Origin: Methylocaldum szegediense
GTDB taxonomy: Bacteria > Pseudomonadota > Gammaproteobacteria > Methylococcales > Methylococcaceae
Reading direction: 5' to 3'
DNA: 64,000 bases
Assembly (NCBI RefSeq): GCF_949769195.1
Contig: NZ_OX458333.1
Coordinates: forward strand, 124,001 to 188,000
Part shown: one piece after another, positions 9,082-31,496 of the stretch
Layout: every line of letters starts with the position of its first letter
How positions within the stretch are numbered: the stretch's first letter is position 1
Notes under the pieces: generated by a model
Database searches by the model: none
Seen by the model: only the letters and a program-made list of their open reading frames with translations
What the model was told of the DNA's origin: nothing
Translations under genes and position numbers: made by a program

Positions 9082-10296
9082 TCAAAACTTCAGGATAGTG
9101 TTTGCAAAGACCGCGTTGTATTCGTAGTCGCCAAACTTCCTGGTGGAGTTACGGTGTCCCTTCTCGTAGACGATATTCAACTCACCGTGATCGGAAAAGT
9201 TGTAGGAAGCCGATAATCGGCCGATTAAGATTGTATCTTCGTCAGTCTTTGCATCGGGGCGCAACTTCGGGTCGCCGGCGTACTGCCACTCTTCCCAGCT
9301 AAATGTCGCTTGCAAGTCGATTTTGGGCGTTACCGACCAAGTGGGAGTGATGCTGACGCCTCTGGTGATGACATAGCTGGCCGTAATGTCCGAGGTTTTG
9401 TTCAACAAGTCTCCCCAACCGGACAATGTAATTGTGGTTTTCCCCGTCGGGGTCCATTGGTAATTGAACCGCCAGGCTTCGCCCTCATAATCTCGTTGTG
9501 AAAATTGCTTGTGCTTTCGAATGCGATAGCCTACGCGCCCCTCTACCAGCGATTTTCCGGTTATCTGCCATTTGTAGAGTGCGCTCAATTCATGTTCTTG
9601 GTACTGGTTATCGATCAGCGCAGACAAAATCCGCTCCCGATTCGGCAGGCGAGCATCGGTGTGCGTGTATTGAATGCCGATCGTATTCTCGTCGGGAGAT
9701 TTGTAGTGCAGTCCGATAATACCGGTATTACTTTTTAAATCGAGAAATTGACGCTCGGCTGCACCATGCTCGCTATTCAGCCATCGGTATTGTCCGTTCA
9801 ATCTCCAGCGTGGATTGAACTTGTAATTGATATCGACCAAAGCTGAATTGTCCGTAATGAGATCCTTTCCGAAAAAGTCCGTGTTCGTAAAACGTCCCAA
9901 GTACTGCCTGTAGTCATAGCCGAGTATCCCGCCGAGAGACGTTCCCAATTGCCATTTCCACGCCCCTTTTGCCACGGCTGATACATGGTTCAGGTTATCG
10001 TGGTTGACGAACCGATTGTCGTCGACCTTACCCTCGATAAAGAATTCCTGACGGCTCACCGGAATATAGGTTTTGAGACCTGCGGAAAGCCGATTGATCA
10101 AGTCCCAGCGCTTCGAATCGTCTATCGGTGCGTTCGGATTCGTCTCGCGTGGGCGGCGGAAGAGATTGTCGTCGTAGGTCAGTGTCTCGGATATGTAAGG
10201 CTGAAAAGTGTCAGTCGGATCGGCGACGCCGAAAGAGGCTTCCGTCCAGACCAAAAACGTCAGGGAAATAATCGTTTCGGCTTTGGGCTTATACAT
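9082..10296 (-). CDS. epsL: Outer-membrane beta-barrel protein of the EpsL exopolysaccharide family
   Basis: A 404-residue predicted outer-membrane barrel: a short N-terminal signal-like segment (about 1-24), then alternating aromatic and polar strands throughout (for example TLTYDDNLFRRP, LNGQYRWLNSE, NIVYEKGHRN) and a terminal phenylalanine (ANTILKF). The TYDDNLFR start of the barrel and the operon context fit the EpsL family found in methylotroph exopolysaccharide loci, where it is thought to aid polymer transport across or retention at the outer membrane. It is the last gene of the minus-strand cluster, 56 bases after the FGE-like gene. The barrel call is good; the family name rests on recognition and context. 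Confidence 0.72.
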   Translation of the reverse strand: MYKPKAETIISLTFLVWTEASFGVADPTDTFQPYISETLTYDDNLFRRPRETNPNAPIDDSKRWDLINRLSAGLKTYIPVSRQEFFIEGKVDDNRFVNHDNLNHVSAVAKGAWKWQLGTSLGGILGYDYRQYLGRFTNTDFFGKDLITDNSALVDINYKFNPRWRLNGQYRWLNSEHGAAERQFLDLKSNTGIIGLHYKSPDENTIGIQYTHTDARLPNRERILSALIDNQYQEHELSALYKWQITGKSLVEGRVGYRIRKHKQFSQRDYEGEAWRFNYQWTPTGKTTITLSGWGDLLNKTSDITASYVITRGVSITPTWSVTPKIDLQATFSWEEWQYAGDPKLRPDAKTDEDTILIGRLSASYNFSDHGELNIVYEKGHRNSTRKFGDYEYNAVFANTILKF

Positions 10297-10352
10297 GACC
10301 CGCCAATGCTTGCGGCTTGAACACTTTCAAATGCTTGCGCAAAGCTTTTGTG

Positions 10353-12491
10353 TCAGCCAATGCGTTGGGACTTGCCGTATCGTCGAATCCCGAACACCGT
10401 TAGCCCGGTCAACAGCGAGGCACCTACTCCGACAACCATGCCATAGACGGCTGCCGCGCGCGGCGTTAGATTCCGGAAAATGCTGTCCAGCCTCGCACAG
10501 CTTGCTTCCGCCGCCGTTTCCATTTCGTCGGACGATGCTCTGGCCAATCGACCGCCATATACGAAGTACCCATGTGCGGGATCGCCGGGATCCAGGTTGA
10601 GTGCATGCAAGCCTAAATACGAGTAATTGAAGGAGCCTCCTCGTAGCCCCCGCGTCCACTCGTCACAGCGCCAACATTTCCCCCGGCCTTGGCTACGCCA
10701 GTCTTCGATCCATTCCCAAACGTTCCCCGCCATACCCTGCACCCCGAAGAAACTCGCTGCATACGGATAGTCGTTGACTCTCGCGACGTACCACGGCTCC
10801 CCAATGCCGAGTTGGGTCGTTTGGTAATTGGCAGTGTTGCGATCACCCGGCGGCGCAGAATTGTTCGGTGCGTTGTCGGTCATCAACGGGTAATCCCAAT
10901 ACTTCCTGACGCCGGGCTTTAAAGGGTCAAAATAGGCTGCCTTGTACCATTCGTCGTTGCTCGGGATCCAATACCTTGCCCCCGGATTTCTTCTGTCCGG
11001 GAGCTTTGAAAACTCGACGATGGCTCCAGGTGTGGTCGGGAACGAGCGGGTGTCGTAAGCGCCGTGCGAGTCGTTTCCTTCCGTCGTTCCGAGCTCAGAC
11101 CGTCCGGTTCTAGGATTCCCGTAGTGATACCAATTAGCCATTCGGGCCAGCATGTACCATGACAAATAAGTCACCGGGCGTTCTTCCCAGCCAGGTTTCG
11201 CGGAATAGACGAACTCGTCGCCATTCTTCCGTCTGACGATGCCGCCCACGACCCCCGACTGCATGTCTTCATGGAACAATCGAAACGGGTCGGATTTCGA
11301 AGCAACGGCGTTCAAGAAATCCGCATATTGGCGATTGGTAATTTCGTACTTACCGATCTCGAATGAATAGGGCACGCACCCGTGACCATAGAGAGGATCT
11401 TTGTCATTACCCGGGTATCCCACTTTCACGAATACCATGTCGGTTTCGTTGTGTCCGTTATCGTGGACGTCCGGAACCGCCGTGGCCGCAGGTAAGATGG
11501 CCTTTTTGGAAGGTCCAACGGGATCAGGATTCATAAGCGGACGAGGAGTCGCAGTCCCGACTGGATCGATTGCTTGGGGGGTACGGGCAACTCTGAATCC
11601 GAAGGTGGCGAGCTTTTGGTCTGGCATCTCGCTGTCGCGGTAGGTTCTGCGCAGTGCTGACTCGTACATGACCAGAGACCCGCCGAGTGCCATGCGCCCC
11701 GAGCCGTTTCGATCTTCTACCCACTCCATGGCGTTTCCGGCTTGGTCGAACGTTCCGAAAGAACTGCCCGATCCGGAATAAGAACCCACTTCGGTGAGAT
11801 GCGGAAACGGGGCTGCCCATCGTTCAGAATAGAAATTGGCACTATTGAACCGATCCGTTGGCGCTGATGCCGAAGGTTTTTTGTCGGAGCCGGTTGCGAA
11901 CTCCCAATAGTCTTGGCGAGCGTAATCGTAGAATCCAGCCTTGATCCACTCGTTGCAGTTGGGTATCCAATAGAGCGCGTTCACGTTTCGCCTAATATTC
12001 GCGCTGTTGCCCAGACGCTCGAGTTCCGAGGTGTCGTAGGCCCCGACAGTGGCATTACCCTCCGTGGTGCCCAAAACGGAGTGCCCCGAGTTCGGCCTTC
12101 CGAAGTGCAGCCAATTTGCGTATCGAATGGCATCGAACCAAGATACGAAAGTGACAGGCAAGCGCGCATACCCCGGCTTCACGCTATAGTGGATCTGGCC
12201 GTCGCGCACCTCCGCCCGTATCCCACCGAAAAAGTGTTGCTCCATCAATTCGGAGTAAAGTCCTTTTGAATCGCCGTAGCGTGCGACAGCATTCAGAAAT
12301 TCGGCATATTGCTCGTTAGTGACCTCGTATCTGGAAATTTCGAACGGATAGTCCACTTTTCCGCAGCCCGTCTTTGGGTCGGGCGGATTGCCGGGGTGAT
12401 CGACCAGGACGAACCCGGTGGAATCATCTCCGACGGGATTACAGACACCGTCGTTAGCGTTCAGCAGACCAGTCAGCGACACGACAACCAT
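10353..12491 (-). CDS. Tandem formylglycine-generating-enzyme (FGE-sulfatase) fold protein with C-terminal membrane anchor
   Basis: The protein (712 residues from ATG 12491) contains two FGE-fold domains, at about residues 26-303 and 350-665. Both open alike (PFEISRYEVTNEQYAEFLNAVA and SFEIGKYEITNRQYADFLN) and carry WIP.(C/N/D)EW, AGN.(M/V)EW.ED and GGS; the duplication is evident. The last 40 residues are a hydrophobic segment followed by RRYGKSQ, as in membrane or sorting anchors. The cysteines of a true formylglycine-generating site are not where expected, so sulfatase activation is doubtful. The N-terminus is uncertain: AGGAGG is 21 bases before this ATG, and the basic residues just upstream would suit a signal peptide. 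The genes on both sides are exopolysaccharide genes. Confidence 0.72.
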   Translation of the reverse strand: MVVVSLTGLLNANDGVCNPVGDDSTGFVLVDHPGNPPDPKTGCGKVDYPFEISRYEVTNEQYAEFLNAVARYGDSKGLYSELMEQHFFGGIRAEVRDGQIHYSVKPGYARLPVTFVSWFDAIRYANWLHFGRPNSGHSVLGTTEGNATVGAYDTSELERLGNSANIRRNVNALYWIPNCNEWIKAGFYDYARQDYWEFATGSDKKPSASAPTDRFNSANFYSERWAAPFPHLTEVGSYSGSGSSFGTFDQAGNAMEWVEDRNGSGRMALGGSLVMYESALRRTYRDSEMPDQKLATFGFRVARTPQAIDPVGTATPRPLMNPDPVGPSKKAILPAATAVPDVHDNGHNETDMVFVKVGYPGNDKDPLYGHGCVPYSFEIGKYEITNRQYADFLNAVASKSDPFRLFHEDMQSGVVGGIVRRKNGDEFVYSAKPGWEERPVTYLSWYMLARMANWYHYGNPRTGRSELGTTEGNDSHGAYDTRSFPTTPGAIVEFSKLPDRRNPGARYWIPSNDEWYKAAYFDPLKPGVRKYWDYPLMTDNAPNNSAPPGDRNTANYQTTQLGIGEPWYVARVNDYPYAASFFGVQGMAGNVWEWIEDWRSQGRGKCWRCDEWTRGLRGGSFNYSYLGLHALNLDPGDPAHGYFVYGGRLARASSDEMETAAEASCARLDSIFRNLTPRAAAVYGMVVGVGASLLTGLTVFGIRRYGKSQRIG

Positions 12492-12607
12492 GACGTAGCG
12501 CGTTTTGGTGGTCCTCCTAGAGGTGCCGTGAGCGTGGGAAGCGTTGCTCTCGCTACCATTTCGGAAAGATTTGCAAATTGCGTTACGGCTATTCACAGCT
12601 GCAGACT

Positions 12608-13813
12608 TCAGCGAAAGAGGAGCGGCAAGATGTCGTGGATCCGCTTTGCACGAAAATAAGACCGCGCTACCGCGCGGTTTTCGGATTCCGCAGTATGGCC
12701 TGTGGCCGCAGAATTCAGGCCGTCGAGGATTGCGGACGCGAATCCGCATTCGTCCTGGCTGATTCGGAAGCAACGCCTAACTTCATCGGGAAGGCCTGCC
12801 AAGCCTTGGGGCGTACAAACCAATTCGGCAGGGGAAAACAGCATTTCCACCGATTTGATGTTGACCCCGCTGCCTGCAAAGACAGGGTTGATCAGCACCT
12901 GTGCATCCCGCAATACCGTAACGGCGTCCCGCGGATTTTCGATCAGTGTGACTTCAGGCCGCGCGGCCAGTGCGGCTCTGATTCGGTCGGAAGGCTGGCT
13001 ACCTGCGATGAACAGGCGTAGGCCCGGGCACGCATCGAGTAGCAGGGGTGCCACCTTCTCCAGAAACCAAACCAAGCCCTGGACGTTATTGGGCATAAAC
13101 AGGTTTCCGAGATAGCCGACGTCGAATTGGGGCGGATCTTTTCGCGGTGCACTGAGGCGTTTCGCAAAAGATTCATCCACCAACGGCGGTAGCCAATGTC
13201 CGGATGTAAACCCGTGCTTCTCCCAGTATCTGAGGTCATCGACGGAGATATCGAAGAACGCGGAACTCTCCCTGAGAATTCCGTGTTCATAACGGCGCAG
13301 GTTGAATACGCTGAGTGTCCACTGGAACTTCTCTCGTGTCGTTCGGGCGAGTCTGGCTTGGTCCAGTGTGTACCGATGTTCGATGTTGTGAGAGCGGTAG
13401 AACAGCGGCAGCTTCAGCTCGTGGGCCAGACGGCGGGCCACCTCGCCGCCGTAGAGGGCATCCAGCCAGACTGCCTGGCTGCCGAATGTCCGCTGCGCTT
13501 CCAATAGGGAATGAAACTCGGCGGCTCTCAAGTTGCGGGAAGCGACTCGCCAAGGCAGCCGCCACAGTCGTCCGGCTCGCTTGATGCGCGAAGACCAGGT
13601 TTGTTCAAACGGAAAGACATACAAACCCTCCACGACCTCCCGCACTTTGTCCAGGTGGTCCGGTTGCGGCGCGCCAGCGGCTCCGCCGCCCCAGCAGACG
13701 AGCTGGATGCGGACACCGGCCGATTTCAAGGCGCAGAGCCGACGCCACACATCCACCAAACCGCCATGGCTGGGAGGGAAGGGCAACTCGTTGCAGATCA
13801 TCGTGATACGCAT
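12608..13813 (-). CDS. Glycosyltransferase, GT4-type (GT-B fold)
   Basis: A 401-residue protein with the N-terminal signature of nucleotide-sugar transferases (MRITMICNELPFPPSHGGLVD, with the glycine-rich acceptor loop) and a C-terminal donor-binding domain (FDVGYLGNLFMPNNVQGL, then INPVFAGSGVNIK). The start at 13813 follows AAGGACC. It starts 11 bases after the heparinase-like gene and is probably in the same transcript. It should add a sugar to the lipid-linked repeat unit at the inner membrane; donor and linkage cannot be read. Confidence 0.83.
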   Translation of the reverse strand: MRITMICNELPFPPSHGGLVDVWRRLCALKSAGVRIQLVCWGGGAAGAPQPDHLDKVREVVEGLYVFPFEQTWSSRIKRAGRLWRLPWRVASRNLRAAEFHSLLEAQRTFGSQAVWLDALYGGEVARRLAHELKLPLFYRSHNIEHRYTLDQARLARTTREKFQWTLSVFNLRRYEHGILRESSAFFDISVDDLRYWEKHGFTSGHWLPPLVDESFAKRLSAPRKDPPQFDVGYLGNLFMPNNVQGLVWFLEKVAPLLLDACPGLRLFIAGSQPSDRIRAALAARPEVTLIENPRDAVTVLRDAQVLINPVFAGSGVNIKSVEMLFSPAELVCTPQGLAGLPDEVRRCFRISQDECGFASAILDGLNSAATGHTAESENRAVARSYFRAKRIHDILPLLFR

Positions 13814-13823
13814 CGGTTGGTCC

Positions 13824-15833
13824 TTATCTTGCGCGGCCTGTTTTCCGTGCGGATGCCTGTGACGATCCGAGCGGGTGAAACACCAGCTTGAATTTGGTTC
13901 CCGTTGCCATGCCCTCAAGGTAGATGCCCCGCCGGGTGTAGGGCCGTACGGAATCGGGCACCGTGCCTACAAACGCGCGCTGCAGCTCAGCGCCGAAGAC
14001 CGTTAGGGCAAACCGGCGGCCACCGCAGTCGAGCGTGCTACTCCAAGTGCCGGACGCCACATAGGCGGTCCAGTCCTTCCAATGGCGAAAAGCTGTCGCT
14101 TTAGGCAATGATGCCCCTTCGGCTTTAGAAGGGCTGTCGGCGGTCACCGCACAGGGCGTGTTCAGGACCACGCCGATCGCCTGCGGCGTGTCCGATCCAG
14201 TGGTCACCCCGACCTCATCGATAAACTCGCCGCCTTCGACAGCGAGACGCCGCGTTGCCGTCACCCCGGGACGATAGCTCGGATGGGACACCGTCGCGGA
14301 CGAGCCGTCCGGAGCGATCTCGTCGAGCTGTCCCTCGGATGGCCATGGGGTTTGCCCATCGCCGTTGACCAGCGGCACGTTGTGCGCCGGCGCCCGGCTG
14401 AAATAGTCTTTGTGCAGCGGCGAGCCGTAGCCGACCGTGCCGGCGTCTCTGAGAATCCAGGTATCGCCGTATTGGAGTTCATAGGTGAGAGCTTCCTGCT
14501 GGGCATGAAAGCGGGCTTTCTGGCCATAGCGCAGCAGGGCGTGCCAGCCATTCTTCACGACTTGAACCGCGTCGAGGCCCGGTACAGGGCCCGATACCGC
14601 CTCGGGTAAAGGAGGCACCGAGTCGACGGCCTTGGGCGGATCGAGCAGGTTATCCCAGCTCAGTTGGTTCTCGGCCTCTTTGAGCCCGATCCAGGTCGGC
14701 AACACCCGGCGGGAGGCCGCCCACAGCCGGCGATTCGGCGCCTTGCGGTTGGGCGGCGAATCGTTGAGGGTGGGGGCGTCTTCGTCGGCAAAGCGCACCG
14801 TCATGGGGGCGATCATCAGATTTTGCGTGATCCAGAGTTCTCGGGCGAAGTCGGCCAGGCGGCCGCGCAACGAGGCGCCGACCAGCAGTTCTACCATGGC
14901 TTGGACCACGTAATCCTGATAAGACAGGGAGTGCTCGTACCAGAACCAATCGGGTGACACGCCGGTCTCGAGGAGCGAGCGAAGACCGAAAGGTGAGTGC
15001 TTGCCGAAAGCGATCAGCTCGGTTTGGTCGAACTCGAGTCCGATCAAGGTTACGGCCGCGGCATGCCAGACGGCGATGTTGTGAACCTCGCGCGAGGAGG
15101 CCATCAGGTTGGCGGCGAGGGGCAGGAACAATCCGTCGCGCCAATGGTTGACGCGAGCCGCCGGAACATGGGGTTTCAGCAGCCGGACGGTTTCGATCAA
15201 CACCAGGGCTCGGGTGGCTTCGTCCAGGCTCTGATTCATCAATTGGGCGCGGCCGTTCCAAGTTTGCAAAGGGAAGCCGTGGTAGGCATCGGCGTAGAAA
15301 TCGAGCTGCGAAGCAGCCCAATCGAAGTAGCGGTTATCGCCGGTCAGGCGGAACAGCCGGGCGGCGTCGAGCACGCGATCGATGTTGTAGATCCGGTTAT
15401 GGGCGATCCAGGCCGCGCGTAGCTTTTCAGAGCCCGGTTCGTCAGGCGGGATCGGCTGGTCGGGAGTCCAGTGAAGAAAGGCACCCGTCTTTGTATTCAC
15501 GTAATTGTGCAGCCAGCCTGCCGCCCATTCCGGGTGGTCGCGGGGTGTGCTCATCCACTTCGCAATCCGACCGGTTTGCTCCTTCAACCAAGCGTTCCAG
15601 CGCGGGTCGCGAGCCACGCGCCGGCGGGCCGCATCCCAGTCCTCGCGGGCGGCACGGGCCGGTGCATAGTCGTCGTCACCCGCCTTCAAGGCCTTAAAGG
15701 CGGCTTTGACCGTGTCGTCACTGGGCAGGTCTGGGGCTTTTGACGCTGGTTGAGTTTTGCCCGCGGCGATTGCTTCGACGAATGCTCCTGTCAGCAAAAA
15801 GGCACGCCAGCTCCATGATCGCAGCGTTCTCAT
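13824..15833 (-). CDS. Heparinase II/III-like polysaccharide lyase, exported
   Basis: A 669-residue protein beginning with a signal peptide (MRTLRSWSWRAFLLTGAFVEAIAAG). An alpha/alpha-toroid domain fills the N-terminal half (GWLHNYVN, AWIAHNRIYNIDRVLDAARLF, EVHNIAVWHAAAV with the conserved histidine, WYEHSLSYQDYV) and a beta-sandwich domain of heparinase II/III type the C-terminal half (LRYGQKARFHAQQEALTYEL, then SPLHKDYFSRAPAHNVPLVNG). Such proteins cleave uronic-acid polysaccharides in the periplasm. In an exopolysaccharide operon it may trim or turn over the polymer. The start at 15833 is chosen for the signal peptide; the open frame extends 13 codons further. Confidence 0.82.
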   Translation of the reverse strand: MRTLRSWSWRAFLLTGAFVEAIAAGKTQPASKAPDLPSDDTVKAAFKALKAGDDDYAPARAAREDWDAARRRVARDPRWNAWLKEQTGRIAKWMSTPRDHPEWAAGWLHNYVNTKTGAFLHWTPDQPIPPDEPGSEKLRAAWIAHNRIYNIDRVLDAARLFRLTGDNRYFDWAASQLDFYADAYHGFPLQTWNGRAQLMNQSLDEATRALVLIETVRLLKPHVPAARVNHWRDGLFLPLAANLMASSREVHNIAVWHAAAVTLIGLEFDQTELIAFGKHSPFGLRSLLETGVSPDWFWYEHSLSYQDYVVQAMVELLVGASLRGRLADFARELWITQNLMIAPMTVRFADEDAPTLNDSPPNRKAPNRRLWAASRRVLPTWIGLKEAENQLSWDNLLDPPKAVDSVPPLPEAVSGPVPGLDAVQVVKNGWHALLRYGQKARFHAQQEALTYELQYGDTWILRDAGTVGYGSPLHKDYFSRAPAHNVPLVNGDGQTPWPSEGQLDEIAPDGSSATVSHPSYRPGVTATRRLAVEGGEFIDEVGVTTGSDTPQAIGVVLNTPCAVTADSPSKAEGASLPKATAFRHWKDWTAYVASGTWSSTLDCGGRRFALTVFGAELQRAFVGTVPDSVRPYTRRGIYLEGMATGTKFKLVFHPLGSSQASARKTGRAR

Positions 15834-15849
15834 CGTTGTCCTCTTGTCG

Positions 15850-17232
15850 TCATGGATGGAAAAACGCGACATCGGATGAGGCGTTAGGACTTACTTCCTT
15901 CGCCAGGAAGGGCTCGATGTTGAGCAAGGCGAGTTGTTCGACCCTAGGCCAAGAATCCGAGACACGGGTAGCGAGGACCTCGCGTGAGGAAACCAGTTCG
16001 CCGAGCAGCGATGCCAGGCGAGAGGAATCGAGAATCGACTCGGGGGCCACCGCCAGATGTCCGGGAAGTTCGAAATGTCGGAAAAGTCCTTCGAATTTGC
16101 CTTGATACGTGACGGCGGCGACGGGCACACCCTGGCCGAGCGCCGCGACCGCCAAATGCATCCGTCCGGTGAAAACAGCGTCCGTCAGAGAGGCGATGGC
16201 TTTCAGTTCTTTTGCGGAGAAATGATTCTTCCAGTAGCGGATCCGTTCGCCCAATTCGTCCTGAAGTTGTTCGAAAATCGGGCCAAGCATGGCTTCATCG
16301 CCTAGCGGGCCACCGCGAAAATCGTGCGAAATGAGCAGAAAGGTCACATCATTCCGCGCCGCAACTTCACGCAATCCCCCGACCGCGGCACGGACCATCG
16401 CCGAACGCTGGGATTCATCGCCTTCCTTGATCAGCATCGGGTGGAGATTGAAACCCACCACGGTATGGCCTTTCGCCCGTTGTGACTCGGCCCATAGACG
16501 AACGGCTTCCACTCGTTCGCTGAGCCAGGGGCGTAGCAGGAAGGCGGCATCGGCGACCAGCCTCGAATTCGCTTGCGATATGCGTCCAAAGCGTTCGAGA
16601 GAAACTTCGTCCCGGACGGACACGACGAAACGCTGATCGAGCGAGCGCAGGCAGCGGCGCAACCGAGAGGACGGTCTGTCGTTGAACGAGAATCCTAAAG
16701 TCGCGCTTCGTTTTCCGAGCCGCGCAGCCATGTCGCCGACCACCCAAAGGCGCAGAGCAGTCAGCGGAGAGTAGTATCCGTCCATCACGTCGCCGCCGAC
16801 GATCACCAGTCCTTCATAGTGAGACATGGTCTGGATTAGCCGGCGCAGGGACCACTTGGGATTGGCCCAGACCGGTTCCAGGTGCACGCCAAGATTTGCC
16901 AGCGTCTCGGGAACTTTGTCACGGTAGGTCAGCAGCCCGAATCGGCAGGTGGGATTGAATTCACGGATGCGCTCGACGAACGCCGTAATCATCGCCTCGT
17001 CACCTTTAGAGCCGGCAACCGTATCCGGATCGCAGGGAGCGATCAGAATCGAGTTACAGGATTCGTTCGGATGCGGGTGGGGCGGATTGGCCAATTGCTC
17101 CTTTTCGCGCTGCCATTCCTTATACAGCATTGGCACCCGCAAGAACTCTCTCAGGAGAGCGCGAACCCCTTTTGCTTGAACGTTCTTGATCCTAATGGGC
17201 TTTTGGGGCTTATCGGAACTTAGTTCCATCAT
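15850..17232 (-). CDS. Polysaccharide pyruvyl transferase family protein
   Basis: The 460-residue protein resembles the polysaccharide pyruvyl transferase/CsaB superfamily: SNSILIAPCDPD..GSKGDEAM near the start, LVIVGGDVMDGYY, then VVGFNLHPML, LLISHDFRG, LTDAVFTGRMHLAVAALGQGVPVAAV and TYQGKFEGLFRHF. Members put ketal-linked pyruvate on sugars. The first ATG at 17232 overlaps the flippase stop (ATGA), so the long open frame reading upstream across the flippase gene is spurious. The heparinase-like gene follows 16 bases after its stop. Pyruvylation is inferred from family. Confidence 0.8.
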   Translation of the reverse strand: MMELSSDKPQKPIRIKNVQAKGVRALLREFLRVPMLYKEWQREKEQLANPPHPHPNESCNSILIAPCDPDTVAGSKGDEAMITAFVERIREFNPTCRFGLLTYRDKVPETLANLGVHLEPVWANPKWSLRRLIQTMSHYEGLVIVGGDVMDGYYSPLTALRLWVVGDMAARLGKRSATLGFSFNDRPSSRLRRCLRSLDQRFVVSVRDEVSLERFGRISQANSRLVADAAFLLRPWLSERVEAVRLWAESQRAKGHTVVGFNLHPMLIKEGDESQRSAMVRAAVGGLREVAARNDVTFLLISHDFRGGPLGDEAMLGPIFEQLQDELGERIRYWKNHFSAKELKAIASLTDAVFTGRMHLAVAALGQGVPVAAVTYQGKFEGLFRHFELPGHLAVAPESILDSSRLASLLGELVSSREVLATRVSDSWPRVEQLALLNIEPFLAKEVSPNASSDVAFFHP

Positions 17233-18692: not shown

Positions 18693-18701
18693 GGGTTCCA
18701 C

Positions 18702-21097: not shown

Positions 21098-21105
21098 AGC
21101 CTTCC

Positions 21106-23234: not shown

Positions 23235-23294
23235 GCGTATCCCCCTGTAAATCTCGTTGCTTCACGCTCCCGCAGGCGGGGCAGTTCGTGGTTG

Positions 23295-23765
23295 TCAATC
23301 GAAACCGTATTCCGCCATGAGGCGCTCTTGTCGTTCGTCGGCCCCTTCCAGTCGCCCATAGGGGCCCGCAACCACAATGCCCGACTTGATGACGCGGGCC
23401 GGATTGCCGGCGACCACGGATCGCGGCGGCACGTCGCGTGTAACCACGGAGCCGGCTCCGACGATGCTCTCATCCCCAATCGTGACGCCGGGCAGGATGA
23501 TGCTTCTGGCGCCGATGAAACATCGACGTCCGATGCGGGTGTGGGTGTGAAAGCCGCGGGTTAGGTCGTGCGCTAGGATGGCGACGCCAAAAGCGATGTA
23601 AGACTCCTCGCCCACGTGGATGCCTTTGGGATTGGTCAGATCGAATTTGGTCGACAGCGAAAATTGGCTGGATGGATGAATATCCATGCGAAAGACCTTC
23701 ACCAGCCAAAGGCGCTTCAATTCGACTAAGCACAATCGGACCCATCTGAGTTTGCCGAGATTCAT
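23295..23765 (-). CDS. Left-handed beta-helix (hexapeptide) acyltransferase
   Basis: A 156-residue acyltransferase of the WcaF/CysE-like hexapeptide type. Repeats of the form (I/V)GxxS/C..GA are seen in [50 protein letters not shown], ending in the standard AGNPARV turn; a histidine ([10 protein letters not shown]) is placed for catalysis. The start is ATG 23765 (MNLGKLRW); the longer frame upstream is unlike the family. It should O-acetylate a sugar of the exopolysaccharide. Confidence 0.85.
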
Positions 23766-23823
23766 CTTTGATGCTTCTCCAGAATGCTTGCTTTTTGAGG
23801 TGAAACCTTGGCGATGTTTTGGG

Positions 23824-25017
23824 TCAGATCCTGTGCCGGGGTTCGAGGGCGGGTTCGACTGTTCGAAACGGCAGAGGACTGCACGATTCGCGGGATGGCG
23901 AAACCGGCTCTCGGCGGTCGCAGGAACCGACGAAGGCAACCACGAGTACCATGAAGATTTGAGGAACACTGAACGTGTTGTCGGTCGACGAATAAGCAAA
24001 GAAAGCCAGGACGGCCAGCAGAAACGCCCACCTTTTCGTCATCATGGGGTGGCATAACAGGTTCACTAACATGGCGATGAAGGCGCAGCCCATGAGCGCC
24101 GAGCCGACATAGCCGAGCTCCAAGGTAAAGCGAAGGTATTCGTTGTGCGCAGCGACGGTGTGTGTCGTCTCGGATGCTCTCGCGGACAGGATATCCATCT
24201 GGTGTCCCAAGCCTACGCCGAAATAGGGAAACCGCTGTATGTAGGTTTTCAGCTCGTTCCAAATGATGTCGCGACCGCTCATCGCCTCGGACGACAGGCG
24301 GGTCATCAGTTGGTCTCCCATGACGTAGAAAAGCGCAGCTATCGCGACGCAGCCGTAAAGGACCATCAGGATCCTGAATACCGCGGATCGGCTTTCAATG
24401 AACAGCATCGTGCCGGTCACGCCGAGCGCCAGCGCCGACGGCATGCGGGAAGCCGTGAGCATAGTGATACCTGCATTGACGAGGGCGAGCAGGAGATAAC
24501 GCGAACGCTGCTGAAGCGCGAGGTAACTGGCCGCGACGGCACCGGTAACGCCGGCTCCCCCGAGAAATGCCGGTCCCATGTTGCCGGCAAGTCGGCGGGT
24601 GCCAAGATAGTCCGTCATCCAGAGACGATTGATGCCAACCGCTTCGTAAATCGTTCCAAGCAACACCGAGACCGGCGGAGTGAAGGCGGCGATCAGCAGG
24701 ATGAGTTCCCGGTCCCGCTGTTCCGGTAAAGCCGTGAAAAAAAGCAGAAACGCGCTGAGGCTCACTAGGCTTCGCGAATATCGGTCCCAGGAAAAGGCGT
24801 CAAACTCGCTGAGAAGACCGCAAACGAAGCTGACCAGGATGATGAAGCCCATCAGCACGAGGTTGGCCGGAATGCGCTTGCGGGTGAGCGCGAAAACCAG
24901 TCCTGCAATGATGAGAAACAATTTCTCGATAGGATTGGCGTTGGCTAGACCTAGCAATCGTTCCAGGTTGAGGATCAACACCAGTTGCGCGACTAGAAAC
25001 GCGCATCTAAACGCCAT
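23824..25017 (-). CDS. O-antigen ligase/Wzy-type polymerase family membrane protein
   Basis: A 397-residue integral membrane protein with about ten hydrophobic helices, a large periplasmic loop before the last helices, and the family's conserved [24 protein letters not shown]...[16 protein letters not shown] segment (the GxGxG...HNxYL signature). It most likely polymerises flipped repeat units, or ligates glycan, in the inner membrane. The start at 25017 follows GGAGGGG. It follows epsG by 41 bases, in the position where related methylotroph loci carry an exosortase gene. Confidence 0.83.
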
Positions 25018-25058
25018 GTTCGACACCCCTCCAATCCGGCGTTCGGCGCGATCGATCT

Positions 25059-25934
25059 TCAAAATTCATTGAGAACCGCGCCCACGATTCGGCAGCCGAC
25101 GGCGGTCAGCATTTGCCGGAAAAAATCAGCATCGGAAAAACGGGTTACGTGCTTTCTCGCGATCAGCAAACAGGCACCGGCACGGGCGGCGACGGTTTGT
25201 GCATCGCTGGAAGCGACACCGGCGGGGGTATCGAGCAGTATGATGTCGTAGGCCGATACGAGATCCCTCAACAAGACATCAAATGTGCCTCGGCTTAGCA
25301 ATTCCGATGGGTTGGGCGGAAGCGTACCGGCCGGAAGCACCGAGAGATCGGCGAATTCCTCGATCCGACGAATACACTCGGCGCCGCCGCGGCCTACCAA
25401 AAGATCGGACAAGCCCAGACCCGTGCGGCCGAGTGCGAAGATTTCGTGCTGGCATGGACGGCGTAAATCCGCGTCTATCAACAGTGTTCGCTGACCCAAT
25501 TGGGAAAATACGACGGCCAGATTCGATGCCGCATAGCTGCGTCCTTCGCCGCGACCGGGGCTGGTCACCGCCAGAATCTTGTTTCCTTCGCTGTGCCAGC
25601 GCAGCATCAACTGGCTACGTATGGCGCGGAAGACCTCCATTTGAGCGCTGAACGGCTGATAAGCGGCAATCAGCTTGGCGCTGAAATTTCCCTGTCCCGG
25701 CTTCAGATAGCGGTAATCGAATTGTTCCGAGATCGCCCGGCGAATGTCTTCCTCGGAAATCAGTCCGAGCTGTAGAGCCGCCTCGCCGAAGCGCAGACCG
25801 GTTTCCCTCTGAAGGTGCAGCACGCGTTCGGCGTCGAGCGCCGAAAGTCTCCCCGATTCCCGGAGAATGTGTCCGATGCGGCGATCGGTGTTGACAAATT
25901 CAGGTTTGATCCTGATCGGTTGAGCTTGTGTCAT
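25059..25934 (-). CDS. epsG: EpsG-type chain-length/tyrosine-kinase-like ATPase
   Basis: A 291-residue cytoplasmic BY-kinase-like ATPase partnering the EpsF co-polymerase. An N-terminal region with a GspE-II-like stretch (GRLSALDAERVLHLQRETGLRFGEAALQLGLISEEDI) precedes the P-loop domain: Walker A SPGRGEGRSYAASNLA, Walker A' TLLIDADLRRP, Walker B DIILLDTPAG. Arginine replaces the usual lysine in the P-loop (GEGRS), which I associate with the EpsG family, and the protein ends at VLNEF with no tyrosine-rich tail, so autophosphorylation as in Wzc is doubtful. The start is ATG 25934. Confidence 0.85.
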   Translation of the reverse strand: MTQAQPIRIKPEFVNTDRRIGHILRESGRLSALDAERVLHLQRETGLRFGEAALQLGLISEEDIRRAISEQFDYRYLKPGQGNFSAKLIAAYQPFSAQMEVFRAIRSQLMLRWHSEGNKILAVTSPGRGEGRSYAASNLAVVFSQLGQRTLLIDADLRRPCQHEIFALGRTGLGLSDLLVGRGGAECIRRIEEFADLSVLPAGTLPPNPSELLSRGTFDVLLRDLVSAYDIILLDTPAGVASSDAQTVAARAGACLLIARKHVTRFSDADFFRQMLTAVGCRIVGAVLNEF

Positions 25935-26050
25935 GAAACATCTCGCAGGAAAGTGGAAGGTGGATGTCCCGCTCCGGGGCATTCGTGGGAAATGGCGGAA
26001 AAGTAGCGCACGATGTCGACCATCGGGATGTGAATAGTGTCATGGCCGGT

Positions 26051-27457
26051 TCAAGTCGATGACCTGGCGAAGACCGGCCACCAACGCGAACGGCGCAACT
26101 CCGCATCAGTCAATATACCCATGAAAGGGAGTCCGAGTGCGACGCTCAAGTCTTCTGGCGAACGCACGCGCCGATCGAACCACTCGAGTGCCAAAACCAA
26201 ACTGACCGCTAGTACGATGCCTAGGAAACCGGCTACAGCAACATTCAGCACAACTCTGGGCTTCGACGGACGCAGCGGAGGTTTCGCAGGATTCAAAATC
26301 GCGACATTGGTGTGGCTGGCTTCGCTTTCGAGCCGGGTTTGGTTAAAGCGCGCCAAAGCGGCTGTATAAGCCTGCCGCGCATGCTCGACCTCCCCGGTCA
26401 ACACCGACAGCTCATCCCGCTGTTTGTTGAGCTCGAGTATTTTCGCTTTTTGTTCGGCGACTGCCGTTTTGAGTTCGTTTTCGCGGCTGCGGGCGATCTC
26501 AACCGCGGTGTTCAGGCTTTGGATGATCGTTTTTACTTCAGCCGCCAGCTTGCGTTTGAGGCTGCCTGCTTCCGCTAGGGCTTGTTGGTAAAGCGGATGG
26601 TTGGTGTCGTACTTCTGCCCGATCTCGGCGAGCTTGGCTTCGGTCAATGTCAGTTTTGTCTTTAGATCTTGGACTACCGAGTTGCTCAGCACTTCAGGGA
26701 GCGTTTCCGGCAAGAAGGATCGGCCGGCCGTTTCCAATTGGCTGCGGCGGGACATCAGGTCGTAAGTATTCGCCTGGGCGACCACCAACTGTTTGGAGAG
26801 ATCTTCCAATCGGCTGTTTTCCACATCCAAATGTTGCTCAACCGAGACGATGCCTTTTTCTTGCTGATAACGGGACAGATTGGCCTGGGCATTCTCCAGC
26901 TTTTCGCGTAAGCCTCTGATTTGTTGTTCGAACCAGGCGGCGTTCTGGCGCGCCGGTTCGGTTCTGAGTTCCAGATTGGTTGCGATGTAACTCTCCGCGA
27001 ACGCGTTGGACACCGTAGCGGCGAAGTTCGGATCGCTATCCGAGAAACTGACGTTTATGACGCTGCTTTCACGCGAGGGCAGGACATCGAGTTTTTTAAG
27101 CAGCCGACCGGCTAGCCAGTCGCGTATGTCGCCCGCTCCGTCGGTTTCCTGTTCGAAGCGCTCCTTCATGTCTGGCAGGTCGGCCAATTTGAGCTTGTCC
27201 ACCACCTTCAGCGCCACGTTATGGCTGCCGATGATGTTGACCTGGGTTGCCATATATCCCGGCATCAGCTGTGCCGGAACAGCGATGCCCGTGATTGGGT
27301 CCACGCCCTTGTAATCGACGACCAGAGCGGTCGTGGCCGTATAGGCTTTTGGCAGCATCAAGCTGACGGCAAGCGCCATGAGGGCGGCAGCCAAGGGCGT
27401 GACGACGAGCACCCGCAACCGTGCCCTAAGGATTTGCAGGAACTGCTGTAAATTCAT
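26051..27457 (-). CDS. epsF: Chain length determinant protein EpsF (Wzz-type polysaccharide co-polymerase)
   Basis: A 468-residue inner-membrane protein: a helix near residues 18-38, a long periplasmic region with coiled-coil content (about 165-390, WFEQQIRGLREKLENAQANLSRYQQEKG), and a second helix near residue 405 after the proline-rich LNPAKPPLRPSKPR that marks Wzz proteins. It regulates polymer length and joins the Wzy polymerase to the outer-membrane exporter. Its kinase-like partner EpsG lies downstream and the exporter EpsE upstream. Confidence 0.9.
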   Translation of the reverse strand: MNLQQFLQILRARLRVLVVTPLAAALMALAVSLMLPKAYTATTALVVDYKGVDPITGIAVPAQLMPGYMATQVNIIGSHNVALKVVDKLKLADLPDMKERFEQETDGAGDIRDWLAGRLLKKLDVLPSRESSVINVSFSDSDPNFAATVSNAFAESYIATNLELRTEPARQNAAWFEQQIRGLREKLENAQANLSRYQQEKGIVSVEQHLDVENSRLEDLSKQLVVAQANTYDLMSRRSQLETAGRSFLPETLPEVLSNSVVQDLKTKLTLTEAKLAEIGQKYDTNHPLYQQALAEAGSLKRKLAAEVKTIIQSLNTAVEIARSRENELKTAVAEQKAKILELNKQRDELSVLTGEVEHARQAYTAALARFNQTRLESEASHTNVAILNPAKPPLRPSKPRVVLNVAVAGFLGIVLAVSLVLALEWFDRRVRSPEDLSVALGLPFMGILTDAELRRSRWWPVFARSST

Positions 27458-27528
27458 AGCGACTCACTCGTCTCCCTGAAAATGCTTCCTCGAAAAGAAA
27501 ACCGTGCCGGCGTTTGAAGGAAGAACTG

Positions 27529-28326
27529 TCAAAACCATCGCTCGCCGACATAGATCACATCGTCTTTCTGGACCAGTTCGTCCAACTCCGCGTCTATCGT
27601 GGTCAAACGGTCCTCTGGTGACCGCCGTTTGATCGTGATGCTGCGCAGACTGCCGCGAGGCGTTACACCCCCTCCCAAGGAAATCGCTTGAGCGACGGTC
27701 ATGTTCCGTTCCAGCCGATATGCCCCGGGGCGCTGCACTTCCCCGTGGATGTAAAACACTGGAGCACGCGGCACGAATATGACATCACCTGCTTCGGCCA
27801 CAATGTCCTCAGTGGCTTTCCCCTCCTCGAGCAGTTCTTTGAGGTTCAGCTCTTCGCGGTAGGTTTTTCCGTTCCGGACCCGCGTCACGATCGTGCGGTC
27901 GTCACCCTGCGGATTTACCCCTCCCGCCAAAGCGATCAACTGAGTCACTGTGGTTGCGGTATCCAGGGCGTAACGGCCGGGATTGTTCACGAAACCCAAT
28001 ACGGCTACTTCGTGGCTACGGTATTCCTGCACCGCGATATTCACCTGAGGGTCGCGTACATATCCTTGGTCAGAAAGGAGACGCTCGATCAAATTTTCGG
28101 CTTCGCCAACAGATAAGCCGCCAACTTCGATTTCCCCGAGCAGCGGAAACGAGATTTTTCCGCTGTCTGAGATGCGGGTTTCGGTGGCAAGGTCCTCGTT
28201 GCCATAAACCGTAATACGGATAAGGTCGTTAGGACCGAGTAAATAGTCGGCCCGCGAAGTCGACAGCATCAGCAAAGCGACAGCGCCGAAAAAGAACTGT
28301 GAGCAGATACCGAGAGGTGTGCGCAT
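27529..28326 (-). CDS. epsE: Polysaccharide export protein EpsE (Wza family)
   Basis: A 265-residue secreted protein with a signal peptide (about 1-26, ending STSRA; no lipobox cysteine), an N-terminal polysaccharide-export domain (DYLLGPNDLIRITVYGNEDL) and two SLBB domains (EVAVLGFVNNPGRYAL and VFYIHGEVQRPGAYRLERNMTVAQAI). It forms the periplasmic/outer-membrane conduit for the polymer. Unlike Wza it lacks an acylation cysteine, which suits the EpsE subgroup. The start ATG is at 28326. Confidence 0.9.
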   Translation of the reverse strand: MRTPLGICSQFFFGAVALLMLSTSRADYLLGPNDLIRITVYGNEDLATETRISDSGKISFPLLGEIEVGGLSVGEAENLIERLLSDQGYVRDPQVNIAVQEYRSHEVAVLGFVNNPGRYALDTATTVTQLIALAGGVNPQGDDRTIVTRVRNGKTYREELNLKELLEEGKATEDIVAEAGDVIFVPRAPVFYIHGEVQRPGAYRLERNMTVAQAISLGGGVTPRGSLRSITIKRRSPEDRLTTIDAELDELVQKDDVIYVGERWF

Positions 28327-28394
28327 GTCTTGTTAAATAAAGTTCAAATCACGGTAATGAGTTATATCGATAAATGGAATAGCCTTTGCACTTC

Positions 28395-29774
28395 TCAATA
28401 AGCGGTGTCTTGCTTTAGGAAAACACCTGCGGTTCTCAAAATGATCCAGAGATCTAGAGATAGTGACCAATTCCGCAAATAATCGAGATCTAATTCGATG
28501 CGCGATTTCATCTTCTGTAAGGTATCGGTTTCTCCACGAAAGCCGTTGACCTGCGCCCAACCGGTTATGCCAGGCTTTACCTTGTGTCGGATCATGTAAC
28601 CCTTGATCTGCGTGCGATACAGTTCATTATGAGCAACCGCGTGCGGGCGTGGCCCGACAATACTCATGCGCCCTTGCAATACGTTAATGAATTGCGGCAA
28701 TTCGTCGAGTGAAGTCCTGCGTAAAAATCGGCCGAAACGGGTGATCCGGTTATCGTCCTTGCTCGCTTGTCGAATATTGTTTCCGTCTTCACAAACCGTC
28801 ATCGTCCGAAATTTGTAGACCTTGATCTCCTCTCCATCGAGACCGTAACGGCGCTGCTTAAAAATCACTGGACCGGGCGAACTCAATTTGACGCCAATGG
28901 CGATCGCCAGCATCAAAGGAGAAATTAAAATCAGAATGAGAGACGATAAAACAATATCCACGATGCGTTTCGTGACACGGTTTATACCGTGAAAAGGAGA
29001 CTCACATACTGCGACCACCGGAATCCCGTTTATATTCCCGAACCGGGCTTGAATGAGGTCAAACACAAAAATATCGGGAACAAAGTAAATAGATGCTGTG
29101 GTATCCCTGAGCCTATCGAGAAGATCGACAATTCGCGGCTGAGCCATCATTGGAAGCGCAATGTAGATCAGATGAATCGATTGCGTTCGAACAAAATCTG
29201 CCACAGCGCTCATTTTTCCTAGTAAGTTAAGGCCGCTTATTCCGAGGCGTTGAGGACTTCTATCGTCGAAAAAACCAACAAAATCGATTCCCAGATAAGG
29301 TACCGATTCGAACTGCTTTGCGAGTTTGAGGCCGAGCTCATTCACACCGACGATGATAGCCCTGCGTTGAGCGCCTTTCTTCGATACAGCGGACCGTAAC
29401 AGATATTGGGCAAGGACTTGGACCGTGACGAGTACTAACGGCGTAGCTAAAAACCAAGTGAACAGCAGCTTTCTGGGGAATTCATGGGACATTTTGGCGG
29501 CATAGCCCAATATGGCTAAGAATCCGAACAAAAACGTCCAACGGGCAAAAATGCTGCCGAACGAACGTAGAAGACTCGATTTGAAGTCAGGCTGTAGATC
29601 TATCTCGTCAAAAATCAGAGAGGCGATCAAAAAGGTTATCACCAATAACAAGAAATACTGCTTTTCGATCTTCAACCCATAGAAATGAGTCGTCAGGATA
29701 AAGCACAGGACGATCACTATCGGATTCAAGAGACTCTTAACGAGTAGAACCGATGGCCTGTCGATCGCTTGCAA
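28395..29774 (-). CDS. epsB: Undecaprenyl-phosphate glycosyl-1-phosphate transferase (initiating enzyme, EpsB/WcaJ type)
   Basis: A 459-residue polyisoprenyl-phosphate hexose-1-phosphate transferase. Four N-terminal helices (to about residue 120), a cytoplasmic nucleotide-binding-like domain (RAIIVGVNELGLKLA), a further membrane hairpin (RIVDIVLSSLILILISPLMLAIAIGV) and the catalytic bacterial sugar-transferase domain (KQRRYGLDGEEIKVYKFRTM, RRTSLDELPQFINVLQGRMSIVGPRP, GITGWAQVNGFRGET) are visible. It puts the first sugar phosphate on undecaprenyl phosphate. The start is TTG at 29774, seven bases after GGAGG; the ATG between is out of frame. Confidence 0.92.
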   Translation of the reverse strand: MQAIDRPSVLLVKSLLNPIVIVLCFILTTHFYGLKIEKQYFLLLVITFLIASLIFDEIDLQPDFKSSLLRSFGSIFARWTFLFGFLAILGYAAKMSHEFPRKLLFTWFLATPLVLVTVQVLAQYLLRSAVSKKGAQRRAIIVGVNELGLKLAKQFESVPYLGIDFVGFFDDRSPQRLGISGLNLLGKMSAVADFVRTQSIHLIYIALPMMAQPRIVDLLDRLRDTTASIYFVPDIFVFDLIQARFGNINGIPVVAVCESPFHGINRVTKRIVDIVLSSLILILISPLMLAIAIGVKLSSPGPVIFKQRRYGLDGEEIKVYKFRTMTVCEDGNNIRQASKDDNRITRFGRFLRRTSLDELPQFINVLQGRMSIVGPRPHAVAHNELYRTQIKGYMIRHKVKPGITGWAQVNGFRGETDTLQKMKSRIELDLDYLRNWSLSLDLWIILRTAGVFLKQDTAY

Positions 29775-29925
29775 CTCTCATCCTCCGTAGATTGTTTACC
29801 GTTTTGTAAGTGAACAAGAAACTAACGTTTGGATTATCGCCTTACCACGTATGGTATAGGCCGGTCTCGCCGCGCACGGATATAGCCGTTATGGGCAGAA
29901 AGCAAAAGTTCGCGACTCGTCGATG

Positions 29926-30474
29926 TTAATGGGAAGATAAATAAATGGGCTCAGCTTTCTTGTTACTGCGAAAGATTTGCAATCCGATCAGCGTAATTCC
30001 AACCAAGATCATAAACCAGGTTTCGTCCTCCGACGCGGAAGAAGCATATTGGGCGTATGTGGGTTCCCTTAGGCGGCCTTTGAGCCCCTCAAGGGTGAAA
30101 AGGGTCGGCAGGGCATTCTGGATTTCGCGGAAACTTGCTTGCGATTCTTGAGCAAACAAGTTGTTTGAAGATCCATTGGTCGAGACGTTAAAGGCAGCCA
30201 TAAAAGCTGTCCTACCGACAGATGGGATGCCGCTACTGCTCTTAGTCAGGTCGAAGAAGGAATGCTCGGTATATTCGGTATATAGTGCTTTATCGGAATG
30301 CGGTATATAGGGAGCAGGCTTAATGAAAAAGTAGCTGCTTTCCTTGCCATGATGAGATGTGTCAAAAGGTGAGACGTTATCGTCGAAAGCCTCGGCGAGT
30401 GGCCCATGTGACCAGACAAGCAGTAGTGACAATATCGTTCCGGAGAATATATTGGCGAGATGTTGCTTTTTCAT
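29926..30474 (-). CDS. Small secreted protein with degenerate PEP-CTERM-like C-terminus
   Basis: A 182-residue protein of unknown function. A signal peptide (MKKQHLANIFSGTILSLLLVWSHGPLAEA) is followed by a polar, serine- and phenylalanine-rich body and a C-terminal hydrophobic helix with a basic tail: EDETWFMILVGITLIGLQIFRSNKK. The pattern ETWxMxxxGxxxxGxxxxR copies the tripartite PEP-CTERM sorting signal (PEPATWAMMIxG...RRR), but PEP is replaced by EDE. It lies between epsD and epsB. The ATG is seven bases after GGGAG. It may be an exosortase substrate or a relic of one. Confidence 0.62.
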   Translation of the reverse strand: MKKQHLANIFSGTILSLLLVWSHGPLAEAFDDNVSPFDTSHHGKESSYFFIKPAPYIPHSDKALYTEYTEHSFFDLTKSSSGIPSVGRTAFMAAFNVSTNGSSNNLFAQESQASFREIQNALPTLFTLEGLKGRLREPTYAQYASSASEDETWFMILVGITLIGLQIFRSNKKAEPIYLSSH

Positions 30475-30581
30475 GTTTAACTCCCATTCGGACGCATTCT
30501 TAAAAAAAGACTACGCTGTGTTTTCCTGTTCAATGCAATATCTGTCGGCCAAGTGAAAATGTGTGGCACTTAGGAAAAGCC

Positions 30582-31496
30582 TTAGTGAGTATTGGAGCCA
30601 GGCACATCGTTCGAAACGAGTTCGGCGGGCGGACGCGTTTTGAGCGAAGTATTGACGGTACTTTCTATATCATCGAAATATTCGATCGTCGCAGCGTTCC
30701 GGAGCCGTCTCAGTTCGCTGTTTATCAAAGCAATTCGGCGCTGATTGATCAGAAACGCCTCGATTCGGGGAGCGGCTTCATCTGGGTCTAGGGGTGCCTC
30801 TTTGGTATTCAATAATTGCAGCACCAGAAAATCTTTGCCCGATTTAAACCATGCAATATCACCTTTCTTCAGGCGATCGAATTCGTCCAGACGACCTAAG
30901 GGTAACTCCTCCGCGGCACGGACGACCGTTTGCGACGTATGGGGAATAGCCTGATCTTGTAGCCATCTGGAAAGAGCATCGAATTCGATGGGGTGCTTGA
31001 GACGCGTCTCGATGACGTCCTGGCTTTCCGGCGTGAAAGGGATGGCTATTTCGCGGAACTCGTAGATCTTGCGCTTCTCGAACAGCAGAGGATGCGATTT
31101 GTAAAAAGCGCTGATCTCATTGATGTCCGGTTTGGAAACCTTCTGCCCAATATGGTCTAGATAGGCTTGTGCGAGGACCTGACGTTGAGCCATGGCCGCG
31201 GTAAGCGTGACTTGAGGGTCGCGGTCCAACTGCTTTTCGATGGCTTGCTGCGAGAGAAGCTCTTGGGTGACTAGGTCGTCAAGGCTCTTTTCTAAACTTC
31301 TGGTTTGAGAATCGGCGCTAGTATCCGAATGCGCGACGAAAACGTCGAGTTGAGCGGCGGAAATGGGATCTCCGTTGACACGGGCGACAATGCGGGCCGC
31401 GCCGTCGGATGCGGTCTGTCCCTCGCACCCCATCAGCGTTGCCAGCATGGCGTACGCGCTCAGGGGCAACGATTTCAACCAAAGTTTTCTCTCCAT
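30582..31496 (-). CDS. epsD: EpsD-type peptidyl-prolyl cis-trans isomerase, lipoprotein
   Basis: A 304-residue periplasmic lipoprotein: the signal peptide ends in the lipobox ATLMGC, followed by a SurA-like N-terminal segment (ARVNGDPISAAQLDVFV, QELLSQQAIEKQLDRDPQV) and a parvulin-like region (RKIYEFREIAIP...LPLGRLDEFDRLKKGDIAWF). The arrangement fits the EpsD family of peptidyl-prolyl isomerases found in methylotroph exopolysaccharide loci. The start ATG 31496 follows GGAGAATT. It is the first gene of the cluster, with a sigma-54-like promoter about 75 bases upstream. Confidence 0.83.
   Translation of the reverse strand: MERKLWLKSLPLSAYAMLATLMGCEGQTASDGAARIVARVNGDPISAAQLDVFVAHSDTSADSQTRSLEKSLDDLVTQELLSQQAIEKQLDRDPQVTLTAAMAQRQVLAQAYLDHIGQKVSKPDINEISAFYKSHPLLFEKRKIYEFREIAIPFTPESQDVIETRLKHPIEFDALSRWLQDQAIPHTSQTVVRAAEELPLGRLDEFDRLKKGDIAWFKSGKDFLVLQLLNTKEAPLDPDEAAPRIEAFLINQRRIALINSELRRLRNAATIEYFDDIESTVNTSLKTRPPAELVSNDVPGSNTH

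Follow-up and report, generated by a model that had tools for sequence, protein, structure and literature searches.

A constrained sorting-type tag in an eps locus of Methylocaldum szegediense in which no exosortase gene was found

The eps locus of Methylocaldum szegediense described here, in which we found no exosortase gene, carries a short gene whose predicted product ends in a C-terminal tag related to the PEPxxWA-CTERM sorting signals. As comparisons of the coding sequences within the genus show, the Pro-Glu-Pro motif of this predicted tag has been replaced, and its transmembrane segment and cytoplasmic end are strongly constrained at the protein level. To account for this pattern, we propose, at a probability of about 0.5, that a Wzx/Wzy-dependent polysaccharide locus descended from an XrtB-type ancestor, that XrtB was lost, and that one tag was kept as an uncleaved membrane anchor.

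XrtB is the usual exosortase partner of eps loci of this kind, and exosortase tags are usually seen as parts to be removed. The XrtB/PEP-CTERM eps locus is of the methanolan type of Methylobacillus. The window, by which we mean the whole stretch of 64,000 nucleotides that was analysed, spans positions 124001-188000 of a contig (C1) of 4.87 Mb.

Results

The eps locus and its polymer machinery

The genes of the locus lie on the minus strand (Table 1). EpsD, EpsE, EpsF, EpsG and EpsL all scored above their NCBIfam curated cut-offs, and the Wzx/Wzy set is complete as judged by families, with a starter transferase, Wzx, Wzy, a chain-length protein with its kinase, and an export protein. A lipobox-like LMGC was seen by eye near the N-terminus in the EpsD translation. 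The gene between epsD and wcaJ, which encodes the tag-bearing protein (P0001), had been overlooked in the original prediction. A scan for promoters and terminators gave a result no better than that obtained with shuffled sequences. The protein with FGE-sulfatase-like stretches ends in a hydrophobic segment followed by RRYGKSQRIG, without PEP, and is perhaps a second tail-anchored protein of the locus.

Table 1. Genes of the eps locus, in window positions, with the evidence for each assignment
Feature	Position	Strand	Evidence
EpsD, peptidyl-prolyl isomerase family	30582..31496	-	TIGR02925, 161.8 bits (cut-off 108.9)
Orphan protein P0001, 182 aa, with C-terminal tag	29926..30474	-	translation, homologs, tag alignment, conservation, structure model
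WcaJ, undecaprenyl-phosphate glucose phosphotransferase	28395..29774	-	TIGR03023, 549.1 bits
EpsE, polysaccharide export protein	27529..28326	-	TIGR03028, 299.3 bits
EpsF, chain length determinant	26051..27457	-	TIGR03017, 567.9 bits
EpsG, chain-length tyrosine kinase	25059..25934	-	TIGR03029, 355.8 bits; longest ORF to 25982
Wzy-type polymerase, directly after epsG	23824..25017	-	PF04932 Wzy_C, 44.6 bits (cut-off 31.7); longest ORF to 25062
Hexapeptide-repeat acyltransferase	23295..23765	-	best NCBIfam matches mostly acetyltransferases, all 25 shown below cut-off
GT4 glycosyltransferase	22005..23219	-	PF13579, PF13692, PF00534
GT2-like glycosyltransferase	21106..22008	-	PF00535, 20.7 bits (below cut-off 23.3)
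Phytase-like esterase domain protein	19955..20968	-	PF13449, 130.8 bits; longest ORF to 21109
Glycosyltransferase (Glyco_trans_1_4)	18702..19970	-	PF13692, 66.4 bits
Wzx-type flippase	17229..18692	-	PF13440, 247.2 bits
Polysaccharide pyruvyl transferase	15850..17232	-	PF04230, 75.4 bits
Heparinase II/III-like lyase	13824..15833	-	PF07940, 31.4 bits
Glycosyltransferase (Glyco_trans_1_4)	12608..13813	-	PF13692, 41.3 bits
Protein with FGE-sulfatase-like stretches	10353..12491	-	PF03781, 137.8 bits, 2 stretches
EpsL, outer-membrane protein	9082..10296	-	TIGR03014, 303 bits (cut-off 275)

Directly after epsG, the window locus has the Wzy-type polymerase where 4 of 6 XrtB loci have XrtB; the original prediction had noted a polymerase at this place. 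We rejected Wzy as a stand-in for XrtB, because an XrtB locus from another genus (G027) carries both, with XrtB followed by a Wzy_C protein. Among ten chosen proteins, mostly encoded by multi-TM genes after epsG, seven had no Pfam family at 0.001, so that polymerase identity in the other loci is read from helix counts only. In the G027 locus, XrtB and EpsI form one fused protein of 554 aa (L036:6758-8422; XrtB 344.5 bits, EpsI type B 228.6 bits).

Exosortases of the locus and of the genome

The prediction that the locus contains no exosortase gene was borne out: no exosortase model matched any of the window proteins scanned, and a search for a divergent one inside the locus or next to it found none. 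A tblastn search whose queries were XrtB from relatives and the genes following XrtB (taken as EpsI) gave no match in the window locus at E <= 1; hence the EpsI gene that stands beside the exosortase in XrtB-type eps loci was not found here by tblastn. In the congeners, the sole match of the same search lay in G001 (26.9 bits, E 0.077). Remnant matches elsewhere were weak (G018, E 0.11; G004, E 0.79; the second G103 locus, E 0.53), and the second G103 locus gave in addition 29 aa at E 8e-6 and a further piece at 0.13, with a query of 81 aa that may not be EpsI.

Across the whole genome, TIGR02602 detected three exosortases (C1:4592855, 1314811 and 1240255). PF09721 at E <= 1 returned the same three and added none, which led us to discard the idea that the genome hides a divergent exosortase. 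One of the three is XrtA (356.5 bits) and two are XrtD (561 and 598 bits); against the XrtB model TIGR03113 they reach 72-102 bits, with a cut-off of 275, and no match to that model was found in the genome at E <= 1e-50. XrtB, the mark of an XrtB-type eps locus, was found neither in the locus nor in the genome. The XrtD genes lie about 1.1 Mb from the window; for XrtA the contig coordinates give a distance of 4.4 Mb, which would shrink to about 0.4 Mb on a circular contig. The original suggestion that the exosortase might be encoded elsewhere thus holds to the extent that exosortases exist elsewhere in the genome, but these are of types A and D and far from the locus. Its companion, that the lineage lost the sorting enzyme and kept the polymer machine, fits a genome in which XrtB was not found and a locus that keeps EpsD and one relative of the XrtB-type tags.

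The same genome has a second eps-type locus at C1:3816-3825 kb (L011:16517 to L012:5260; G000:C1:3816516-3825259), with WcaJ, EpsE, EpsF, EpsG, an acyltransferase, a multi-TM protein and EpsL. It is without exosortase, EpsD or tag, and offers an internal contrast to the window locus. A repeated pair of genes, whose products begin MIYDKFSQITDD and M[PQ]IRLHKNARTT, occurs near this second locus and near the XrtA locus (L011:286-2730, L012:9412-10879, L006:3407-4372), in places represented by the second gene only, and is probably an insertion element.

The orphan protein and its tag

P0001 consists of a signal-like N-terminus, a variable body, and a C-terminal tag, SASEDETWFMILVGITLIGLQIFRSNKKAEPIYLSSH, related to PEPxxWA-CTERM, from which PEP is absent. 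The N-terminus is hydrophobic and forms a helix (3-23) in a low-confidence model; the structure model is poor except for the two end helices, with a low-confidence body and a mean pLDDT of 49.8. As in exosortase tags, a hydrophobic C-terminal helix (149-172 in the model) is followed by basic residues, with R169, K172 and K173 invariant. Neither a PEP nor a VPLPA-like motif is present in P0001, and the tag has no GlyGly or Cys. The protein matched no Pfam family, and no NCBIfam family above cut-off. None of the NCBIfam tag models matched it at E <= 1, the single match being CAL67264_fam (13.9 bits, cut-off 50), and the tag models gave no match at 0.01 on two congener proteins.

The relationship of the tag emerges from alignment. 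The C-terminus of P0001 aligns with the tags of proteins encoded upstream of WcaJ in XrtB loci, for example PEPEEWAMMLVGAGLVSYQVRRKQK in G036, and this XrtB-linked G036 tag is of the PEPxxWA-CTERM kind (NF035944, 32.4 bits, with a cut-off of 35). Across the 11 locus tags aligned, W, M, V, G, L, Q and R are invariant. The P0001 tag resembles PEPxxWA-CTERM in its C-terminal place, its W-x-M-x-x-V-G helix and its basic residues; the Methylocaldum tags differ in reading SED, PDT or SDT for PEP, and in having W followed by L or F rather than by A.

All four of the Methylocaldum genomes searched contain homologs of P0001, and a further 57 genomes gave none. A search for related loci with P0001 alone found none; with an alignment (A2) as query it found two, one of them in Methylocaldum sp. 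14B. A contig titled as a metagenome-assembled genome of Methyloversatilis universalis (L111, DYIL01000007.1) carries a Methylocaldum-type locus, and its title may be a misassignment. The gene order EpsD, orphan, WcaJ, EpsE is shared by all four genomes of the genus. The gene caller missed the orphan gene in G002 and cut it short in two genomes.

Loss of the motif and conservation of the tag

Within the genus, the tag and the rest of the protein evolve differently. The tag shows 68-86% identity and a pN/pS of 0.18-0.29, whereas the body shows 19-58% identity and a pN/pS of 0.44-0.95; invariant columns number 21 of 37 in the tag and 7 of 119 in the body. Synonymous change, which is near saturation in several pairs, is alike in tag and body, indicating that the constraint acts on the protein. 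This comparison led us to reject the tag as a product of mere hydrophobic drift. The invariant columns are concentrated in T152-V168 (13 of 17) and in the cytoplasmic end, residues 169-182 (8 of 14), against none of the six residues before T152. A milder contrast is seen between G010 and G019, which share 33 of 37 residues in the tag and 96 of 130 in the body.

At the PEP position, the seven tags from XrtB-less genomes that have EpsD read PEP (G010), SEP (G019), PET (G014), PDT (G001), SDT (G003) and SED (both G002 and the window), and all seven retain an acidic residue where PEP has its Glu. Among the tags of this kind that were read, those from XrtB genomes keep PEP in 23 of 25 cases and those from XrtB-less genomes in 1 of 7. 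Split by place, the XrtB genomes have PEP in 4 of 5 tags at the loci and in 19 of 20 elsewhere, these 20 being drawn from the 41 non-locus matches in G022, G027, G036 and G103, mostly top-scoring, a choice that favours PEP. The locus tag of G052, which has PEA and belongs to a different PEP-CTERM kind, was left out of the 25-tag comparison. In 6 of the 20 non-locus tags W is replaced by Y, so that W is not fixed in all tags of this kind.

Distribution of exosortase, EpsD and tag in the order

The original prediction had taken the Eps families as normal companions of an exosortase. This expectation fails for EpsE, EpsF and EpsG in the order, which we surveyed in 151 genomes: EpsF exceeded its cut-off in 36 genomes, at 41 loci, and XrtB was present beside EpsF in 6 of these loci and absent in 35. 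An exosortase gap in EpsF loci is common in the order. XrtB exceeded its cut-off in 9 genomes, 8 of which also have EpsF; in G004 and G018 the two lie on separate contigs. Forty of the loci were fetched, the 41st being that of the window, with flanks of about 6 kb on the upstream and 12 kb on the downstream side of EpsF, contig ends permitting. EpsD was found in 15 of the 41 loci and not in the other 26, in a search with the window's own proteins as queries, which would miss a strongly diverged EpsD or one encoded beyond the stretch. Eight of the 15 EpsD-bearing genomes have XrtB and seven do not, and XrtB was found in none of the 26 stretches without EpsD. In a survey of 370 genomes of the class (completeness >= 90 requested), the EpsD model exceeded its cut-off in 12; XrtB did so in 10 of the 11 EpsD genomes outside the order, and in the eleventh (G169) EpsD lies 248 bases from a contig end. 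By these counts of co-occurrence in order and class, EpsE, EpsF and EpsG say little about the presence of an exosortase, and EpsD is a better marker.

Among the seven genomes with EpsD and without XrtB, G000 (the genome of the window), G003, G010 and G019 have 1 to 8 contigs, and the drafts G001, G002 and G014 consist of 80, 110 and 340. PF09721 at E <= 1 gave 17 matches in these seven genomes, all of which could be typed (XrtA, XrtD, XrtE-type, XrtQ-like and XrtM), none as XrtB.

A tag was found in 11 of the 41 loci, comprising 11 of 15 loci with EpsD and 0 of 26 without it (Fisher 4e-7, the rows not being independent); an independent-pairs test of EpsD against tag had only five usable pairs on supported branches (median p 0.125), so that kinship may contribute to this association. 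In all 11 tag loci the tag lies upstream of WcaJ. Three genomes with EpsD (G004, G018 and G094) had no tag within the stretch fetched. In the other genera the gene order is tag, WcaJ, EpsD, EpsE. The XrtB eps loci of one genus, g12 (e.g. L025, L036), resemble the window in having EpsD, EpsE, EpsF, EpsG, the WcaJ starter and a tag-bearing protein upstream of WcaJ. The window differs from them in that no XrtB and no EpsI were found, the tag is without PEP, the genome has one tag, and EpsD precedes tag and WcaJ instead of following them.

A profile (A1) built from the 11 locus tags and run on 16 genomes at E <= 1e-3 gave 17 matches in G022, 18 in G027, 9 in G036 and 5 in G094, 2 each in the further XrtB genomes G103, G004, G018 and G120, and 0 in G052; three of the matches listed from XrtB genomes contain internal stops. 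Many tags together with XrtB thus characterise three of the four genomes of genus g12, the fourth, G103, and other XrtB genomes having few by this profile. Each of the seven XrtB-less genomes with EpsD had exactly one match, at its eps locus, a count that is partly built in, since these seven locus tags are inside A1; the absence of further tags is not. On a tree of EpsE, EpsF and EpsG, the XrtB-less tag loci require three changes (the window genus, G010 with G019, and G014), although the tree carried long-branch and odd-composition warnings and the three changes may amount to one gain and two losses.

Discussion

We propose that the ancestor of the window locus was an XrtB-type eps locus from which XrtB and EpsI have gone, and that EpsD was retained in the lineage together with a single protein ending in an XrtB-type tag. 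P0001 would be exported by Sec, its tail would no longer be cut, and the former sorting tag would serve as a permanent anchor in the inner membrane, with the anchor helix and the conserved cytoplasmic end (KKxEPIYxS) probably touching the polymer-assembly machinery; EpsD may act as a periplasmic folding helper for P0001. The polymer itself would need no exosortase. By family, WcaJ, the glycosyltransferases, Wzx and Wzy are predicted to carry out its synthesis, EpsF and EpsG to set its length, and EpsE and EpsL to provide its exit. The loss of XrtB we infer; a horizontal gain of the tag-bearing locus is possible.

A passage in PMC1569441 reports that methanolan production in Methylobacillus 12S was unaffected by disruption of EpsH, and on this report an exosortase need not belong to the polymer machine. 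Conversely, part of PMC11072679 describes an epsH mutant of Methylomonas LW13 with reduced EPS, which counts against our explanation. So does, for the anchor reading, the full PEP of G010 in a genome without XrtB.

The main rival explanation, which we consider unlikely although it is the most serious one, holds that XrtA or XrtD has taken over the tag, which, despite its altered motif, would still function in sorting. All seven orphan-tag genomes carry XrtA and/or XrtD (both in the four genomes of the genus, XrtA in G010 and G019, XrtD in G014), and at E <= 1e-15 an exosortase of any type occurs in 7 of 7 orphan-tag genomes versus 8 of 21 genomes with EpsF and without EpsD (Fisher 0.007, uncorrected for kinship). 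The acidic residue that persists at the Glu position and the selection on the tag also speak for this reading. However, no enzyme type is common to all seven, given that G010 and G019 have XrtA and an XrtE-type enzyme without XrtD (G019 also an XrtQ-like one) and G014 has XrtD only. The proteins of this genome that match the PEP_CTERM model have PEP in 7 of 9 cases, and AEP and PVP in the other two, and the motif of P0001 differs from these; moreover, cleavage would discard the conserved cytoplasmic end.

Cleavage of the tail by an intramembrane protease of another class seems to us improbable. Tag and protease pairs of similar layout do exist, rhombosortase and myxosortase being examples, but the tag has no GlyGly or Cys, and no candidate protease exceeded its cut-off among the locus proteins scanned, the Peptidase_M50B match of Wzy (20.1 bits, cut-off 26) falling below it. 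That the tag is a relic, in a gene persisting by chance with a decaying tail, agrees with the loss of PEP and is nonetheless improbable, because P0001 is best conserved in its tag and drifts in its body, and because a single tag gene is retained in three separate places of the tree.

Returning to the membrane anchor, we tentatively extend the proposal to a domestication of the tag, in which the loss of XrtB freed the cleavage motif, and the helix and cytoplasmic end may have become a fixed, selected contact surface of the assembly complex. We add, as pure speculation, that EpsG, a tyrosine kinase, might act on the invariant tyrosine within the EPIY end.

A tag without its sorting enzyme has a precedent: a passage in PMC1569441 describes genomes, such as that of Chlorobium tepidum, that encode a PEP-CTERM protein or two but lack EpsH, and sets the case aside there as a possible remnant or false positive. 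The window genome resembles C. tepidum, as so described, in having a tag without its enzyme, and differs in that the tag lies inside an eps locus, is under measurable constraint, and coexists with other exosortase types. Our search of the open-access literature, subscription papers being outside it, found no paper on such an orphan tag.

For annotation, the survey carries a warning: in this order, the presence of an XrtB exosortase should not be deduced from EpsE, EpsF, EpsG and EpsL. The most telling part of these results is the orphan tag under selection and not the exosortase gap. The genomes of this set lack the usual cutter and retain just one such tagged protein each, so that they display which residues of the tag still matter, which are W, M, V, G, L, Q and R together with the cytoplasmic end, and not PEP. 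The split of the cleavage motif from the membrane segment thereby becomes directly testable.
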